From: Acidimicrobiia bacterium
GTDB lineage: Bacteria > Actinomycetota > Acidimicrobiia > IMCC26256 > PALSA-610
Assembly (NCBI GenBank): GCA_036271555.1
Contig: DATBAK010000020.1
Coordinates: 1-59,420, forward strand
Length of the DNA stretch: 59,420 nucleotides
Reading direction: 5' to 3'
Shown here: positions 19,189 to 59,420 of the stretch, one piece after another
How the letters are laid out: every line of letters begins with the position of its first letter
Numbering within the stretch: position 1 is the stretch's first letter
Notes under the pieces: model-generated
Told to the model about the DNA's origin: nothing
What the model saw: the letters and a program-made list of their open reading frames with translations, nothing else
Database searches by the model: none
Translations under genes and position numbers: made by a program

Positions 19189-19232
19189 GTGGTACTGCGT
19201 TGTTCGGCGGTACGCCGACAACGCAGTACCAC
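19189..19232. repeat. 44-base hairpin repeat, copy 1
   Basis: Left arm GTGGTACTGCGTTGTTCGGC(G), loop GTA, right arm CGCCGACAACGCAGTACCAC. The arms are exact complements apart from one extra T on the left. Nearly the same element lies at 57151-57194 and 59287-59330. Here it directly follows the GH4-MDR operon and could act as a terminator or be a REP-like mobile palindrome. The remaining 240 bases to 19473 show no gene. Confidence 0.9.
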
Positions 19233-52117: not shown

Positions 52118-53212
52118 TCACGGCAGCATGACGAGATCGTCGCGGTGGATCACCTCGTGCGGGGCGCCTTCGGGGAGGTCGGCGGTGCGGCGACCGAGGA
52201 TCGTGCCGAGCGTCCGCGCCCGGTAGCGGCTCAGGCCCTTCGCGAAGGCGCGGTCGTCCGGGCCGACGACCTCCACCGCGTCGTCGACGTCGAAATCGCC
52301 TTCGACTCCGCGCACGCCCGCGGGCAGGAGCGAGCGACCACCATGCATCAGCGCGTCGCGCGCGCCGGCGTCGACGACGATGCGACCGGTGGCGCCGCGC
52401 GCGAACGCGATCCAGAGCTTGCGGCTCGCGAGTCGCTGCGCGCGCGGTGGGAACACCGTGCCGACCGGACGACCTTCGAGCGCGTCGAGCACGACGCCTT
52501 CCGTTCTCGCCGAGGCGATCACCGCGCGCACGCCCGACCACGCCGCGATCTTCCCGGCTGCGAGCTTGCTCGCCATGCCTCCGCTCCCCGCCGCGCTACG
52601 ACTCGCACCCGCGACCGCTTCGAGCGCGGCGTCGACCTCGAGGATCTCCTCGATGAGCGACGCGTCCGAGTCGAGGCCGGGATCGGCGGTGAAGAGTCCG
52701 CCGGTGTCGGTGAGCAGGAGGAGCGTGCGCGCGCCGAGCAGGTGCGACACGAGTGCCGCGAGCCGGTCGTTGTCGCCGTAACGGATCTCGTCGTCGGCGA
52801 TCGTGTCGTTCTCGTTGACGATCGGAAGCACGCCGAGCTCGAGCAATCGGCGCAACGTCTCGCGCGCGTGCAGGTACTGACTCCGCGAGAAGAAGTCCAT
52901 CGGGGTGAGCAGCACCTGGCCGGCGACGATGCGGTGCGGCTCGAGCAGCGAGGCGACGCGCGCGTAGAGCAACGGCTGCCCAACCGCCGCGATCGCCTGC
53001 AACGTGCCCGTGTCGGTCGGACGGCGCGTGAAGCCGAGCGCGGGCAGTCCCGTCGCGACCGCGCCGGACATGACCACGACGATCTGATGCCCTTCCGCGC
53101 GCGCGACCGCGATGTCGGCGCAGAGCTTCGCGAGCGCGACGTCGTCGATCTCGCCGTCGGCGCGCGTCACCGACGACGTGCCGATCTTCACGACCGAGAG
53201 TCCTGTCGCCAT
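52118..53212 (-). CDS. proB: Glutamate 5-kinase
   Basis: A 364-residue ProB, first step of proline synthesis. The amino-acid-kinase domain begins LSVVKIGTSSVTRADGEIDD and contains VVVMSGAVATG, PIVNENDTIADDEIRYGDND, LLLLTDTGGLF and GSGGMASKLAAGKIAAWSG. A C-terminal PUA domain is present (GRIVVDAGARDALMHGG, then AFAKGLSRYRARTLGTILGR). Feedback inhibition by proline is usual. ATG 53212 overlaps the obg stop (ATGA). Confidence 0.95.
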   Translation of the reverse strand: MATGLSVVKIGTSSVTRADGEIDDVALAKLCADIAVARAEGHQIVVVMSGAVATGLPALGFTRRPTDTGTLQAIAAVGQPLLYARVASLLEPHRIVAGQVLLTPMDFFSRSQYLHARETLRRLLELGVLPIVNENDTIADDEIRYGDNDRLAALVSHLLGARTLLLLTDTGGLFTADPGLDSDASLIEEILEVDAALEAVAGASRSAAGSGGMASKLAAGKIAAWSGVRAVIASARTEGVVLDALEGRPVGTVFPPRAQRLASRKLWIAFARGATGRIVVDAGARDALMHGGRSLLPAGVRGVEGDFDVDDAVEVVGPDDRAFAKGLSRYRARTLGTILGRRTADLPEGAPHEVIHRDDLVMLP

Positions 53213-54441
53213 CAGTCGCCTTCGTACTCGAGCTCGGTGCCGCCGATACGCACGACGTCGCCGTCGCGCGCGCCGGCGCGCGCGAGCGCGCGGTCGACGC
53301 CGATGCGTTGCAGCCGCTGTTGCACGTACACGAGCGCGTCGGGATCCGCGATGTCCGACACCGCGACCGCGCGCTCCGCGATCTTCCCGTGCACGCGCCA
53401 TGCGTTGTCGCCCTCGCGCTCGATCGAGATCCCTTCTTCGCGCGGCCGCAGGATGACGACGGGATCGGGCGCGTCGGCTTCCGCGCGCGCGTCGTCGATC
53501 AGCGCGGCGACGCGGCCGAGCACCTCGTCGAGTCCGTCCCGCGTCGCGGCCGACACCCGCAGGCCGTCGTACGGCTCGGTCGCGACGTCGGCCTTGCTGC
53601 CGACGACGAGCCGGGGCCGGTCGAGCAGCTCGGGCAGGTAACGGCCGAGCTCACCGAGCAGGATCGCCTGCTGCTCCGCGGGCGTCGGTCCCGCGACCGG
53701 CGCGAGGTCGAGCAAGAGCACGAGCACCCGCGCCCGCTCGATGTGGCGGAGGAACTGGTGGCCGAGCCCGCGGCCTTCGGCCGCGCCCTCGACGAGCCCC
53801 GGGATGTCGGCCAGCACGAACTCGTGCTCGTGGAACCGAACGACGCCGAGGTTCGGGACCAGGGTGGTGAACGGGTAGTCGGCGATCTTCGGCTTCGCCG
53901 CGCTCACCGCCGCGATCAAGGTCGACTTCCCGGCGTTCGGCAGGCCGACGAGCGCGGCGTCGGCCATCAACTTCAGCTCGAGCTTCAGCCAGCGCTCCTC
54001 GCCGTACTCGCCCTGCTGGGCGAACGCCGGCGCCCGCCGCGCGTTCGACAGGAACCGCGCGTTGCCCTGACCGCCGCGGCCGGCGCTCGCTGCGAGCCAA
54101 CGGTCGCCGTGGCGGAGGAGGTCGGCGAGGAGACTGCCGTCTCGGCCCCGGACGACCGTCCCTTCGGGAACATCGACGACGAGGTCGGAGCCGCCGGCGC
54201 CGTGACGCTTGTCGCCCTTGCCATGGGTGCCCGACGTCGCCCGGCGGTGCGGGTGGTCCCGGAAGGCGAGCAGCGAAGCGACGTTGCGGTTCGCCCGCAG
54301 CCAGACGTCGCCGCCCTTGCCGCCGTCGCCACCGTCGGGCCCGCCCTTGGGCGTGTGCGACTCCCGGCGGAACGAGACCGCGCCGGCGCCGCCGTCACCG
54401 GCACGCACGTTGATCTGGGCCTCGTCGACAAAGTTGGACAT
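53212..54441 (-). CDS. obg: GTPase Obg (CgtA)
   Basis: A 409-residue Obg, acting in 50S assembly and stress signalling. The glycine-rich Obg fold is INVRAGDGGAGAVSFRRESH with GGPDGGDGGKGG. G motifs are GLPNAGKST (G1), DIPGLVEGAAEGRGLGHQFL (G3) and SKAD (G4). A C-terminal OCT domain is present (VVILRPREEGISIEREGDNA). TATCCT lies nine bases before the ATG as a possible -10. In most actinobacteria obg follows rpmA directly; here 4.9 kb on the other strand intervenes. Confidence 0.95.
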   Translation of the reverse strand: MSNFVDEAQINVRAGDGGAGAVSFRRESHTPKGGPDGGDGGKGGDVWLRANRNVASLLAFRDHPHRRATSGTHGKGDKRHGAGGSDLVVDVPEGTVVRGRDGSLLADLLRHGDRWLAASAGRGGQGNARFLSNARRAPAFAQQGEYGEERWLKLELKLMADAALVGLPNAGKSTLIAAVSAAKPKIADYPFTTLVPNLGVVRFHEHEFVLADIPGLVEGAAEGRGLGHQFLRHIERARVLVLLLDLAPVAGPTPAEQQAILLGELGRYLPELLDRPRLVVGSKADVATEPYDGLRVSAATRDGLDEVLGRVAALIDDARAEADAPDPVVILRPREEGISIEREGDNAWRVHGKIAERAVAVSDIADPDALVYVQQRLQRIGVDRALARAGARDGDVVRIGGTELEYEGD

Positions 54442-54540
54442 CGCCGCCACAGGATACGGAGCGGGTCGGTCGACACCCCGGAAGCAGGGGCGCCTGGGCG
54501 GCGCGAGCACACGACCACGTGCGCTCCCACCCCGCTGCAC

Positions 54541-54748
54541 GAGCGGCGAGCGCCCGCGGGACGGGTATCCCGGCCCGCAGCGAGCGCGACCAAACGCACC
54601 GAGCGCCGAGCGCCCGCGGGACGGGTATCCCGGCCCGCAGCGAGCGCGACCAAGAGCACCGAGCGGCGAGCGCCCGCGGGACGGGTATCCCGGCCCGCAG
54701 CGAGCGCGACCAAGAGCACCGAGCGGCGAGCGCAGCGAGTGCGACCAG
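54541..54748. repeat. 60-bp tandem array, three full and one partial copy
   Basis: Units begin GAGCGGCGAGCGCCCGCGGG at 54541 and 54661; the unit at 54601 has GAGCGCCGAGCG. Each carries GACGGGTATCCCGGCCCGCA and ends CGACCAA-A/G-A/C-GCACC; the units differ at only a few positions. A short final copy (54721-54748) lacks the 23-25 base centre and ends GTGCGACCA. The unit is an expanded form of the dispersed element. The whole 54442-54786 gap holds this array, the helD promoter and no gene. Confidence 0.9.
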
Positions 54749-54754
54749 AAAGCG

Positions 54755-54760
54755 TAGAAT
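54755..54760 (+). promoter_or_regulatory. -10 hexamer of helD
   Basis: TAGAAT, seven bases past the repeat array and 27 bases before GTG 54787. A GGGGAG ribosome site at 54775-54780 fits a short leader. Confidence 0.45.
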
Positions 54761-54786
54761 TTCTCTTCCCCCACGGGGAGTCGTGC

Positions 54787-57135
54787 GTGACCGAGCAGCA
54801 GGTCTGGGACCCGGAAATCAACAGCGAGCAGGCCTATCTCGACGCGGCGTACGCGCGGCTCGAGTCCATGCGCGGTGCCGCCCGCCAGGTCCAGGACGCC
54901 TACTCCGACGTGCGCGCGGGCGGCACCCACCAGGCCCGACTCGAGCGCGACATCGCCCACAACATCACGCAGCGTCGCCTCGCGGACCTCGAGATCGGCG
55001 AGACACCGCTGGCCTTCGGCCGCCTCGACCTCGAGTCCGGTGATCCGTACTACATCGGCCGCCTCGCGGTCGAGGACGCCGACCACTCGCCGCTCGTCAT
55101 CGACTGGCGCGCGCCCGTCGCCGAGCCCTTCTACCGCGCGACCGCGGTCGCGCCGATGGGCGTCGTGCGGCGGCGCCACTTCATCACCCGCCACGGGCGC
55201 GAGATCATCGCGCTCGACGACGAGGTGTTCGACCGCGACGCGAGCGAGTCTGCGGGCCTGCAGGTCAGCGGCGAGGGCGCGCTGCTCGGCGCGCTCGAAC
55301 GCGATCGCACCGGTCGCATGGGCGACATCGTCGCGACGATTCAGTTCGAGCAGGACGAGGCGATCCGCGCCGAGCTGCCCGGCATCCTCGTCGTCGGCGG
55401 CGGTCCCGGAACCGGCAAGACCGCGGTCGCGCTGCACCGCGCCGCCTACCTCCTCTACACGCACCGGCGCCGGCTCGCCTCACAAGGCGTGCTGCTCATC
55501 GGGCCGAGCCCGGTGTTCCTCCGCTACATCGAGCAGGTGCTGCCGTCGCTCGGCGAGCAGGACGTGCAGCTCTCGACGCTCGCGGGGCTCAAGCCGCAGC
55601 TCGACGCACGGCGTCGCGACCCTCGCCCCGTCGCCGCGCTCAAGGGCGACGGACGCATGGCGAAGATCATCGCGAAGGCAGTGAGCGATCGGCAGCGCCC
55701 GCTGCCGCGTGACCTGAACTTCGTGATCGACGGCCTGCGCGTCACCTTGCGCCGCGACGACTCCGCGCGCGTCGTGCACGGCGCCCGCCGCCAGCGCGGT
55801 ACCCACAACGAACGCCGGCGCAGTGTGGTGCGGCGCACGATCGACATGCTCGTCGCGCGCTACAAGACCGCGGCGATCCGCGCGTACCAGGAAGCGCGCG
55901 TCGACAACGGGAGCGCGAGCCTGACGCTCTTCGGCGGATCGCGGGGCGCGATCAGCGGGCCCGATCCGTTGATCGGCCGCGCGCTGTCCGAAGGCGATCC
56001 GCTGCCCGAAGGGTGGGAGAAGGATCTCGGCGAGCGCATCCGCCGCCGCCCGGAGGTTCGCGAGGCGCTCGATCGCATGTGGCCGGTGATCTCCGGCCCG
56101 GAGCTCGTGAACGATCTCCTGGGGTTCCGCGCGCTCGTGCGCTCCGCGGCTTCCGGAATCCTCGATGCCGACGAGCAGGACCGCTTGCACCGCCCCCGCG
56201 CGGCCGACGTCGCGCACGCATCGTGGACCGACTCCGACGTCGCGGTCATCGACGAGGCCGACGCGCTGCTCGGCCCGGTCGAAGCCGCGCGTCCGCGCTC
56301 CCGGCGCCGACGCGGGCACGACGCCGAGGCCCTCGAGACTGCGCAGGGCGTCGTCGCCGAGCTCGGTCTCAGTCGTTCGATCAGCGGCGCGAGCCTGCTC
56401 GCGCGCTACGGCGAGAACGGCGACGGTGAGCCGAGCGATCTCCCGGAGCCGCGCGTGTTCGGGCACGTGCTCGTCGACGAGGCGCAGGACCTCAACGCGA
56501 TGCAGTGGCGGATGCTGTCGCGGCGATGCCCGTCGGGATCGATGACGCTCGTCGGCGATCCTGCGCAGGCGAGCCGCGCCGCCGCGGTCGCGGATTGGGA
56601 TTCGATCCTGGCGCTGCTGCCGCGGCACACCCCGCCGCGAGCGACGACCCTCACCGTCAACTACCGCACGCCGAGCGAGATCATGGACGTCGCCAACCGT
56701 CTGCTCGCGGCGGCGGCGCCGACGGTCGAGCCGTCACGATCGGTGCGCAGCACTGGTGAGCGACCGCAGTTCGTCGCGGTCGCGGCGAACGAGCTCGTGG
56801 CGCGGGCCGCGGAGGTTGCGGCCGAAGCGTCGGACCGCGGCGGCAAGGTCGCGCTCATCGCACCCACTGCGTGCCACGCGGATCTCGTCGACCGGCTCGC
56901 GGCGCGCGGCGCGGCGTCGGACCCCGCAGTCGCGCTCGACGCGCCGATCGCGGTGCTCGACGCGACCGACGCCAAGGGCCTCGAGTTCGATCACGTCGTC
57001 GTCGTCGAGCCCGCCGAGCTCGTGCAGACCGACCGCGCCGGGCTGCGCCTCCTCTACGTCACGATCACGCGTGCGACCAAGACCCTCGCGGTCGTCCACG
57101 CCCAGCCCCTGCCCGAGGCGCTCGACCTCATCTGA
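54787..57135 (+). CDS. HelD-like superfamily 1 helicase (RNA polymerase recycling type)
   Basis: A 782-residue UvrD/HelD-type ATPase. The N-terminal coiled region (SEQAYLDAAYARLESMRGAA, ARLERDIAHNITQRRLADLE) and VIDWRAPVAEPFYRA are typical of HelD. Motor motifs are Walker A GGGPGTGKTAVALHRAAYLL (Lys211), motif II VDEAQDLNAMQW, motif III LVGDPAQASR, motif IV-V VNYRTPSEI and DATDAKGLEFDHVVVVEP, and motif VI LYVTITRATK. Actinobacterial HelD/HelR strips stalled RNA polymerase from DNA and can protect against rifamycins. It stands opposite to obg, between obg and rpmA. Confidence 0.9.
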   Translation: MTEQQVWDPEINSEQAYLDAAYARLESMRGAARQVQDAYSDVRAGGTHQARLERDIAHNITQRRLADLEIGETPLAFGRLDLESGDPYYIGRLAVEDADHSPLVIDWRAPVAEPFYRATAVAPMGVVRRRHFITRHGREIIALDDEVFDRDASESAGLQVSGEGALLGALERDRTGRMGDIVATIQFEQDEAIRAELPGILVVGGGPGTGKTAVALHRAAYLLYTHRRRLASQGVLLIGPSPVFLRYIEQVLPSLGEQDVQLSTLAGLKPQLDARRRDPRPVAALKGDGRMAKIIAKAVSDRQRPLPRDLNFVIDGLRVTLRRDDSARVVHGARRQRGTHNERRRSVVRRTIDMLVARYKTAAIRAYQEARVDNGSASLTLFGGSRGAISGPDPLIGRALSEGDPLPEGWEKDLGERIRRRPEVREALDRMWPVISGPELVNDLLGFRALVRSAASGILDADEQDRLHRPRAADVAHASWTDSDVAVIDEADALLGPVEAARPRSRRRRGHDAEALETAQGVVAELGLSRSISGASLLARYGENGDGEPSDLPEPRVFGHVLVDEAQDLNAMQWRMLSRRCPSGSMTLVGDPAQASRAAAVADWDSILALLPRHTPPRATTLTVNYRTPSEIMDVANRLLAAAAPTVEPSRSVRSTGERPQFVAVAANELVARAAEVAAEASDRGGKVALIAPTACHADLVDRLAARGAASDPAVALDAPIAVLDATDAKGLEFDHVVVVEPAELVQTDRAGLRLLYVTITRATKTLAVVHAQPLPEALDLI

Positions 57136-57150
57136 GCCCCACCGTTCCTA

Positions 57151-57194
57151 GTGGTACTGCGTTGTCGGCGTATCGCCGAACAACGCAGTACCAC
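57151..57194. repeat. 44-base hairpin repeat, copy 2
   Basis: GTGGTACTGCGTTGTCGGCG, loop TAT, CGCCGAACAACGCAGTACCA(C). It is the inverse of copy 1 (the extra base is on the right arm) and 15 bases after the helD stop. A terminator role is possible. Confidence 0.9.
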
Positions 57195-57251
57195 CGCGAG
57201 CCCGGCGGACGCGTGTGACGGATTGCTGGCCGTCGGCGGTTACGTGCGGTA

Positions 57252-57737
57252 GTGAGCGCAATCGTGGGTGAGGGCGAGGTCGTGGCGATCACCGAGGACT
57301 TCGACTCCTTCGTCGCCCGGTGCGGACCCGACCTGCGGCGCGTGCTGGTGGCCCGCTACGGGCTGGAGGTCGGGCTCGAGGCCGCGGCCGACGCGCTCGC
57401 GTACGCGTGGGAGCGATGGGCGCGCGTCGGCGCGATGGCGAACCCGACCGGCTATCTCGTGCGCGTCGGGCAGTCGGCGGCGCGCCGCTATCGACGGCGA
57501 CCGGTCGGGCTGCCCGACGCCGCGCCGGGCGCCGACTCGACCTTCGACCCCCGCCTGCCGCGCGCGCTCGAGCACCTGTCGCCGCGCCAACGCAGCGCGG
57601 TCGTCTTGATCTGCGTGCACGACTGGACCTACCCGGCGGCCGCGGCCGCGCTCGGCGTGTCGGAGTCGACGTTGCGCAATCACGTGCGGCGCGGGCTCGA
57701 GTCGCTGCGCCGCGAGCTCGGAGAGGACACGCGATGA
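57252..57737 (+). CDS. ECF-type RNA polymerase sigma factor
   Basis: A 161-residue sigma-70 family protein of the small SigE-like group. Region 2 (residues ~15-75: FDSFVARCGPDLRRVLVARY, ADALAYAWERWARVGAMANP) and region 4 (~105-155: HLSPRQRSAVVLICVHDWTY, AAAALGVSESTLRNHVRRGL) are present, with no long linker. GTG 57252 is the longest start; GTG 57282, with GGGCGAGG before it, is also possible. Its stop overlaps the PASTA gene start (ATGA), so the two are co-made and likely regulator and target. Confidence 0.86.
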   Translation: MSAIVGEGEVVAITEDFDSFVARCGPDLRRVLVARYGLEVGLEAAADALAYAWERWARVGAMANPTGYLVRVGQSAARRYRRRPVGLPDAAPGADSTFDPRLPRALEHLSPRQRSAVVLICVHDWTYPAAAAALGVSESTLRNHVRRGLESLRRELGEDTR

Positions 57738-59278
57738 ACATCGCGGAGCAACTGCGCGAGTACCGCAGCACCCTCGACACCGCGACGCAGAGCGCGACGA
57801 CCGAGTCGCCGCGCGTCGCACCCGTCATCCGGTTGCACCCGGCGCGCACGTTGATCATCGCCGCGGTCGCGGTTGCCGCCGCGATCGGGATCGCGTTCGT
57901 GGTCGTCGGCACGACGAACAAGCGCTCGACGCCACCCGCGGGTGTGACCACGTCGACCGGTGTCGCGCGCTCTGCACGCGTTCCGAACGTCCTGGGCGTC
58001 GACCGGCGCCACGCGGTACGGATGCTCACGGCGGCGGGGTTCGTCGTGTCGGAACAGATCGTGCCCAGCGACACCGTCCCGGTGCAGTTGGTCGTCGCGC
58101 AATCGCCGGTCGCCGGCTCGTCCGTGCGGATCGGCTCCGCGGTCACCGTGCGGGTGTCGAGTGGCCCGGCACGCGGCGGGAGCCTGGAAGTCGGCGTCAC
58201 CGTGTGCCCGACGCAGCAGAGCGTCGCGCCGGGCCCGTTGGATCCCGATGCGCCATCGACGATTTTGATCCCCGCCGTGTCCCTCGCGAGCCCCGCGCCC
58301 GCGGCGTACAGCGGGAAGCGCGGCTTCCTCGTCATCACCGCACCCGCGGGTTGGAGCTGCAAGGCCATCGAAGCGGGCGACGGCAGCCAGGGAATCGGCG
58401 TCACGCCGCCGGGTTCGACACCGCGAGAACGTTGGGGCAACCCCGGCCAGGTGACGAAGCCGCTCACCGACGGCGTGTTCGCGATATCGGTCCCCACCTG
58501 CCAGGGATGCGTGTACGACGAGATCTGCGGGATCGTCCCGTCCGCGTCGGCGGACTTCCCCGGCTTCGCGTCACTGCCCTGCTCGCGACCGCCCGGTGAG
58601 ACGGCCATCGATCGCGGGAACGGCGTCTACGAGTTCGACGATCCCGCGGGCACGATCGGACCCGACGCGGCGCGATCGATCCTCCGCTACGTCTCCCGAA
58701 CTGCGCAGACCGACGCGACGGTGGTCCGCGAGACCTGCATCCTGCCGGCGTCGCAGCACAACCTCTGCGACACGCTGTTCGCAGAGTTCTTCGCGCTGCA
58801 GCCCACGCCGTGGAATCAGCCGACGCTCACGATCAGCCCGACCGCGCTCGGCGCGGTCACCCTCGGCGACAACCTGTCGGTGGCGCAGGAAGCCGCGGGC
58901 GAGACCTTCGACGGGACCGGCGACGGCTTCTACTACTCGAGGGCCCACGACGGCACGGGCCTGCACCTCTTCGTCGGCGTTTCGACGGGCAAGACCGTTC
59001 ATTGCGTCGGCGCCGAGCTGATTATCTCGCCCCACGCACCCAAGCAGCGCGTCGTCACGCCCGAAGGCTTCACGCTCGGCGGGACCGTGCAGCTGCTGCT
59101 CGCGATCTACGGGCAGCGCGCGGTGTACGTCCCTGCACCGAAGCGCGGCATGACGACGAACGCGGGCTACGTCGTGAAGGAAGGCGTCGGCGCGCTCGCG
59201 TTCGCCGTGCACCAGAACAAGGTGTTCGAGATCGCGGGCGGCCCCGCGACCATCACGCCCAACACCTGCACGGGTTAG
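57734..59278 (+). CDS. Single-pass membrane protein with PASTA domain, sigma-factor partner
   Basis: A 514-residue type II membrane protein. A short cytoplasmic N-terminus (MNIAEQLREYRSTLDTATQS) precedes one membrane helix (~39-59) and a PASTA domain (~82-146: VPNVLGVDRRHAVRMLTAAG, VVAQSPVAGSSVRIGSAVTV). A ~360-residue external domain with many cysteines follows that I do not recognise. PASTA domains bind peptidoglycan fragments. Position after an ECF sigma gene suggests an anti-sigma or sensor role, but no ZAS-type anti-sigma motif is visible. Confidence 0.75.
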   Translation: MNIAEQLREYRSTLDTATQSATTESPRVAPVIRLHPARTLIIAAVAVAAAIGIAFVVVGTTNKRSTPPAGVTTSTGVARSARVPNVLGVDRRHAVRMLTAAGFVVSEQIVPSDTVPVQLVVAQSPVAGSSVRIGSAVTVRVSSGPARGGSLEVGVTVCPTQQSVAPGPLDPDAPSTILIPAVSLASPAPAAYSGKRGFLVITAPAGWSCKAIEAGDGSQGIGVTPPGSTPRERWGNPGQVTKPLTDGVFAISVPTCQGCVYDEICGIVPSASADFPGFASLPCSRPPGETAIDRGNGVYEFDDPAGTIGPDAARSILRYVSRTAQTDATVVRETCILPASQHNLCDTLFAEFFALQPTPWNQPTLTISPTALGAVTLGDNLSVAQEAAGETFDGTGDGFYYSRAHDGTGLHLFVGVSTGKTVHCVGAELIISPHAPKQRVVTPEGFTLGGTVQLLLAIYGQRAVYVPAPKRGMTTNAGYVVKEGVGALAFAVHQNKVFEIAGGPATITPNTCTG

Positions 59279-59286
59279 TGGTTTTG

Positions 59287-59330
59287 GTGGTACTGCGTTA
59301 TCGGCGTATCGCCGAAGAACGCAGTACCAC
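59287..59330. repeat. 44-base hairpin repeat, copy 3
   Basis: GTGGTACTGCGTTATCGGCG, loop TAT, CGCCGAAGAACGCAGTACCA(C). It lies between the convergent ends of the PASTA gene and rpmA. Confidence 0.9.
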
Positions 59331-59344
59331 TGACGCGCGGGAGG

Positions 59345-59420
59345 TCAGCCCTGGACGATGTCGACGAGCTTGCGGCCGCCGCGCTTGCCGAACTTCACGA
59401 CACCGTCGGACGTCGCGAAC
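59345..59420 (-). CDS. rpmA: Ribosomal protein bL27, C-terminal end only
   Basis: The last 24 residues read FATSDGVVKFGKRGGRKLVD then IVQG and a stop, the conserved end of bL27 (DGxVKFxKxGxxxxxVxI). The rest lies beyond the window. Its place next to the obg block is as expected for the rplU-rpmA-obg order, apart from the helD/sigma/PASTA cassette between. Confidence 0.88.
   Translation of the reverse strand, partial: FATSDGVVKFGKRGGRKLVDIVQG

Follow-up and report, generated by a model that had tools for sequence, protein, structure and literature searches.

The sigma factor gene and its membrane partner

The window, by which we mean the entire stretch of 59,420 nucleotides that was analysed, carries two genes that code for an ECF-type (group 4) sigma factor and a membrane protein, hereinafter the partner (Table 1). 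The stop codon of the first gene and the start codon of the second overlap as ATGA, as reported in an earlier note on this DNA and confirmed here at 57734-57737.

Table 1. Features of the sigma factor-partner locus, with positions in the window
Feature	Positions	Strand	Basis
Candidate autoregulatory ECF promoter, TGTGACGGA-N12-GGCGGTTAC	57214..57243	+	Weak match; modal position and spacing
Sigma factor gene, ECF-type (group 4), 161 aa	57252..57737	+	Pfam, TIGR02983, AlphaFold2 (AF2), Foldseek; start GTG 57252, stop TGA 57735-57737
Partner, proposed anti-sigma factor, 514 aa	57734..59278	+	ATGA overlap; layout shared by clade loci; start ATG 57734, stop TAG 59276-59278
Proposed minimal anti-sigma segment, partner residues 1-35 (helix 3-17)	57734..57838	+	Motif, held-out HMM, mirror-tree
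Single membrane helix, partner residues 36-59	57839..57910	+	Hydropathy; AF2 pLDDT about 95
PASTA domain, partner residues 82-143	57977..58162	+	PF03793, E 3e-11, 43.5 bits, cut-off 23.2
Cys-rich outer domain, partner residues about 155-364	58196..58825	+	Homologous small proteins in genomes G048 and G045
C-terminal outer region, partner residues 365-514	58826..59275	+	AF2 not confident, pLDDT about 30-55

Region 4 of the sigma factor is recognised by the Pfam model Sigma70_r4_2 (PF08281, E 5.9e-15). No Pfam region-2 model matched the 161-aa protein, and its assignment to the ECF (group 4) sigmas, which consist of sigma2 and sigma4 only with a short linker between them, depends for region 2 on TIGR02983 and the AF2 model. 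TIGR02983 (SigE family) spans residues 14-159 with an E-value of 4.3e-19; at 69 bits against a curated cut-off of 141.55 the protein falls outside the SigE-fam_strep family that this model defines. The AF2 model (pLDDT 86.6, from 55 aligned sequences) is all-helical, with two domains and the ECF fold, and solved ECF sigmas are the best matches in both Foldseek and profile searches. Foldseek places the model near the RpoE sigma in the NepR complex (5uxx, TM 0.62), and its matches also include the SigW-RsiW (5wuq) and CnrH-CnrY (4cxf) complexes. This likeness to sigmas of anti-sigma complexes is suggestive only, because the model was built without the partner.

The earlier note described the partner as having a short N-terminus, one membrane helix, a PASTA domain and a Cys-rich outer part, a layout borne out by Pfam, hydropathy, the AF2 model and the presence of ten cysteines, all on the outside (the outer regions of sibling partners have a median of two). 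The match to PF03793 exceeds the curated cut-off and identifies a PASTA-domain protein, in which Pfam finds no known domain besides PASTA. No kinase model was found in the partner that would relate it to the PASTA Ser/Thr kinases (PknB/Stk), and NF033483 covers only residues 37-146, scoring 39 bits where its cut-off is 450. The Cys-rich outer domain has no relative in Pfam or the PDB; its homologues, matched over residues 155-364, are a protein in G048 (2.2e-8) and proteins in G045 (1.1e-6 and 5.5e-5). By eye, the G048 homologue and the first of those in G045 (1.1e-6) are proteins of 243-259 aa that begin with a hydrophobic stretch resembling a signal peptide, and no adjoining sigma gene was recognised for either. 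A homologue search with residues 365-514 returned none, and the AF2 prediction for the fold of the outer domain is not usable.

Conservation and range of the pair

A search for relatives of the sigma recovered a group 38-53% identical to it and marked by the signature N-P-x-G-Y-L-x-R-V-G-Q-S, and a scan of GTDB genomes gave 80 loci of this sigma clade. A partner lies downstream of the sigma gene at all 94 clade loci, almost always overlapping it: at 92 of them the start of the downstream gene falls in the interval from 19 nt ahead of the final base of the sigma stop codon to 2 nt past it, and the remaining two (L142, in which the sigma gene reads as frameshifted, and L150) also have a partner. 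A few of these loci are near-duplicates and in some the partner is truncated by a contig end, and statistics were computed on 88 distinct pairs. Because it is found at 94/94 loci, the arrangement is confirmed to be far beyond chance, and the claim that the two genes are conserved as neighbours holds. No natural fusion of sigma and partner occurs among the loci checked.

Four clade sigmas are encoded in the genome of the window, and another member, L135, comes from the named strain Desertimonas flava. The clade was seen only in Acidimicrobiia. Of the 247 genomes of this class that were searched, 60 contain members by profile search (E 1e-28 or better); most of these members score >145 bits, and the same profile gave no match >88 bits in 296 genomes drawn from across the phylum outside Acidimicrobiia. 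One locus, L127, comes from a record titled Acidobacteria; it groups tightly with an Acidimicrobiia sequence (100/99 support) and is probably a mislabelled bin.

A conserved cytoplasmic tail that diverges with the sigma factor

The earlier statement that the partner has no recognisable anti-sigma domain stands with respect to domain libraries, as its tail matched no known anti-sigma family and had no credible match among solved anti-sigmas in the PDB, but it does not stand for the first ~35 residues, which form a conserved, family-specific segment. Across the family these residues follow the motif M-x-D-L-x-x-Q-L-R-x-Y-x-D/E...P-V-x-x-E-E-V, the first half of which is clearer in the window member (M-N-I-A-E-Q-L-R-E-Y) than the second. 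The AF2 model has an amphipathic helix at residues 3-17 with a pLDDT of about 90. The length before the first membrane helix has a family median of 46 residues and is about 35 in the window member; from charge bias, 83 of the 88 members are predicted to be N-in, and the zinc anti-sigma motif (HxxxCxxC) is present in 0/88. Most partners have one clear membrane helix. One subclade (L113, L115, L119, L130, L132, L141 and relatives) has about three, along with a V-E-R-V/I tail motif, and includes the most exact copies of the promoter described below.

When tail HMMs were built with half of the family left out, they recovered 151 of 176 held-out partners (86%) as against 2 of 176 decoys (1%), the decoys being partners with the first 45 residues shuffled. 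In a mirror-tree comparison, sigma and tail distances are correlated with r 0.53, the maximum over 2000 permutations being 0.12; the control comparison of the sigma with the membrane helix plus 20 residues, a region that aligns poorly, gave r 0.14. The tail tracks the sigma about as tightly as the two halves of the sigma track each other (sigma2-tail 0.48, sigma2-sigma4 0.50), and co-inheritance of adjacent genes could yield part of the sigma-tail correlation.

A shared promoter

The upstream regions of the clade share the element TGTCGCCCA-N12/13-GATGGTCTA, which is present at about half of the sigma genes. Eighteen upstream regions lie within four mismatches of it as against 0.2 expected, with the consensus itself derived from these regions. 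Under cross-validation, the 1% null threshold was exceeded in 212 of 440 held-out tests (48%), with sites mostly 70-87 nt upstream of the conserved domain, and a reverse-strand control gave 3/89. As this promoter is common to about half of the clade, autoregulation is implied, and the sigma factor is probably autoregulated. For the window copy, whose candidate element scores weakly (p 0.18 over 260 nt, 0.04 when limited to the last 100 nt), we infer the same; transcription from this element, if used, would begin near the annotated GTG. A loose version of the pattern has one match in the genome of the window, directly upstream of the paralogue on contig C30, and leaves the window copy unmatched. 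The strict consensus has five matches in the 247 genomes, two of them upstream of clade sigmas (G126, G195) and one in G219 ahead of a gene for a small lipoprotein-like protein; the remaining two look like chance. The lipoprotein-like gene (L200) has an exact copy of the clade promoter in a genome with two clade sigmas and is a candidate target. In form the clade promoter resembles that of ECF41, TGTCACA-n16-CGTC (PMC3426412).

Comparison with known sigma/anti-sigma systems

By likeness of layout, the pair works most like SigI-RsgI and the class II anti-sigma factors, of which CnrY is membrane-anchored, and by membership tests it belongs to neither. SigI is not known to be an ECF sigma and the sigma of the partner is one, which sets the partner apart from the RsgI family; RsgI also differs in having a periplasmic autocleavage domain, and the families listed for the partners include no RsgI-type model. 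The shared traits are nevertheless several: Clostridium thermocellum likewise has multiple paralogous SigI-RsgI pairs, and RsgI likewise combines a short sigma-binding N-terminal domain (residues 1-54 in an RsgI6 construct), one membrane helix and divergent, exchangeable outer sensors, with release by intramembrane cleavage (PMC12203970). The class II anti-sigma domains (CnrY, NepR; PMC8103513) are similarly short, comparable with the segment of about 35 residues that precedes the helix in the window member, but come from other phyla with other sensors; against the PDB, the tail profile matched neither CnrY nor NepR up to E 10, in a search where short profiles have little power.

The class I regulators (RsiW, RskA, RsrA) are also co-encoded, neighbour-conserved regulators of ECF sigmas and often membrane-anchored, but their anti-sigma domains average 101 residues (PMC7406223), as compared with the median segment of 46 residues without a zinc motif in the clade. 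The partner accordingly lacks the approximately 100-residue domain, often with HxxxCxxC, that typifies this class, and no Pfam family of this type is among those listed. The nearest named sigma family, aligned over the full length, is TIGR02983/Streptomyces coelicolor SigE (ECF39). That SigE is without anti-sigma control, and many of the promoters listed for it have the form GGGAAC...CGTC (PMC6767563), unlike the clade promoter, which starts with TGTC. In the titles and abstracts examined, no ECF sigma/PASTA anti-sigma pair is evident, the groups of the 2021 ECF re-classification lying outside this comparison.

A proposed membrane switch and its alternatives

From these sequence-based observations, we judge it likely, with a probability of roughly 0.75, that the locus encodes an ECF sigma along with a membrane-anchored anti-sigma factor for it, the latter belonging to a family that combines a minimal class-II-like tail with exchangeable outer sensors. 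In the tail of about 35 residues, the amphipathic helix leads into a short stretch that reads P-V-x-x-E-E-V in most relatives; as short class II anti-sigma domains do, this tail would keep the sigma closed and inactive. The membrane helix would join it to an outside sensor made up of PASTA and a Cys-rich domain related to secreted proteins, and an outside signal, possibly a wall fragment bound by PASTA, would lead to release of the sigma, probably through in-membrane cleavage. Once free, the sigma would transcribe the operon that encodes it, together with a small number of targets. Sigma-partner binding, inhibition, proteolysis and the signal are the steps we infer. A site-2 protease homologue is encoded in the genome, but as it is likewise found in 14/14 control genomes, it permits proteolysis without being an argument for it.

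The same sequence evidence would be expected if the partner binds the sigma and acts positively or both ways, for instance by being cut to free an activating tail; RskA has been proposed to act both ways on SigK. Dual roles are described in the literature (PMC7509140). We hold this to be improbable, since inhibition is the usual logic of coupled ECF-membrane pairs and nothing at these loci indicates activation specifically.

The outer regions bear on two further readings, both less probable still. The earlier note had suggested a possible new class of cell-wall-sensing anti-sigma factors, and of this the anti-sigma part is supported by the conserved coupled pair, the expected topology and the co-diverging tail. 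A distinct class defined by the PASTA domain is quite unlikely: the domain itself is real, a few sibling partners have a transpeptidase, YkuD or PG_binding domain, and a partner with PASTA-like sequence is likewise encoded after L177, a SigE-like sigma from outside the class, but among 83 partners Pfam finds PASTA in only three, at three different positions and in unrelated outer regions. In the sigma tree, moreover, the sister of the window sigma (L072) and that of L134 (L135) both have partners without PASTA. On account of these counts and sister pairs, PASTA was rejected as the defining feature, and a class defined by it is largely refuted. Other outer domains, each in one or two of the 83 partners by Pfam, include transpeptidase, PG_binding, YkuD, kelch, PQQ, PD40, BNR, SnoaL and F5/F8 among others, so that propellers are represented too, and similarity of the outer regions is detectable in <2% of pairs at sigma distances >0.4. 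By sequence comparison, the outer regions are unrelated and swapped between partners. Cell-wall sensing by the window member is plausible. Such free variation is also what would be expected of cargo, but that the partner is just a surface protein sharing the transcript of the sigma without affecting it, whether as target or as passenger, is equally doubtful given that the conserved part diverging with the sigma is the cytoplasmic tail, not the outer region, and that the overlapping coupling is retained throughout.

Similar layouts beyond the clade

Downstream of SigE-like sigmas outside the clade, the same layout was found in 20 of 20 sampled cases; in 19 of them a membrane helix close to the N-terminus is clear. 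The clade tail motif is present in only two of these partners, and the other 18 are unrecognised by the clade profile; the layout is therefore widespread, and the tail follows its sigma. It is possible, though we put it at somewhat below even, that SigE-like ECF sigmas across Actinomycetota are under a large undescribed receptor family whose cytoplasmic anti-sigma segment is minimal and evolves fast, and, as part of the same tentative reading, that the outer sensors are freely exchanged and one Acidimicrobiia lineage uses the TGTC-type promoter. The partner that follows the SigE-like L177 is a 218-aa membrane protein in which the PASTA-like sequence, as read by eye, comes just after the helix.

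If the preferred reading of the pair as sigma and anti-sigma factor is right, the partners would constitute a compact, modular membrane switch in which a short sigma-specific tail and one helix are combined with any outer sensor, and they would test how small an anti-sigma domain can get. They would also offer a route to reading what many uncultured Acidimicrobiia sense, and matched triplets of sigma, tail and promoter could be used in circuit building.

Genomic surroundings

A 44-bp palindrome, GTGGTACTGCGTT-18 nt-AACGCAGTACCAC, occurs in the window at 19189-19232, 57151-57194 and 59287-59330, and has 54 copies in the genome. Its outer arms are exact and its inner arms vary with compensating changes, giving it a REP-like character; Rfam gave no match in the window. 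The two copies that flank the pair were ruled out as part of it, the element being a genome-wide repeat. Within 53212-59420, the pair and a helicase-like gene (extending to 57135) lie between an obg-like gene and a fragment, both on the minus strand; the fragment is at the end of the contig and by eye resembles the terminal part of ribosomal protein bL27. The obg-bL27 region often forms one operon, and here the pair and the helicase-like gene lie inside it.
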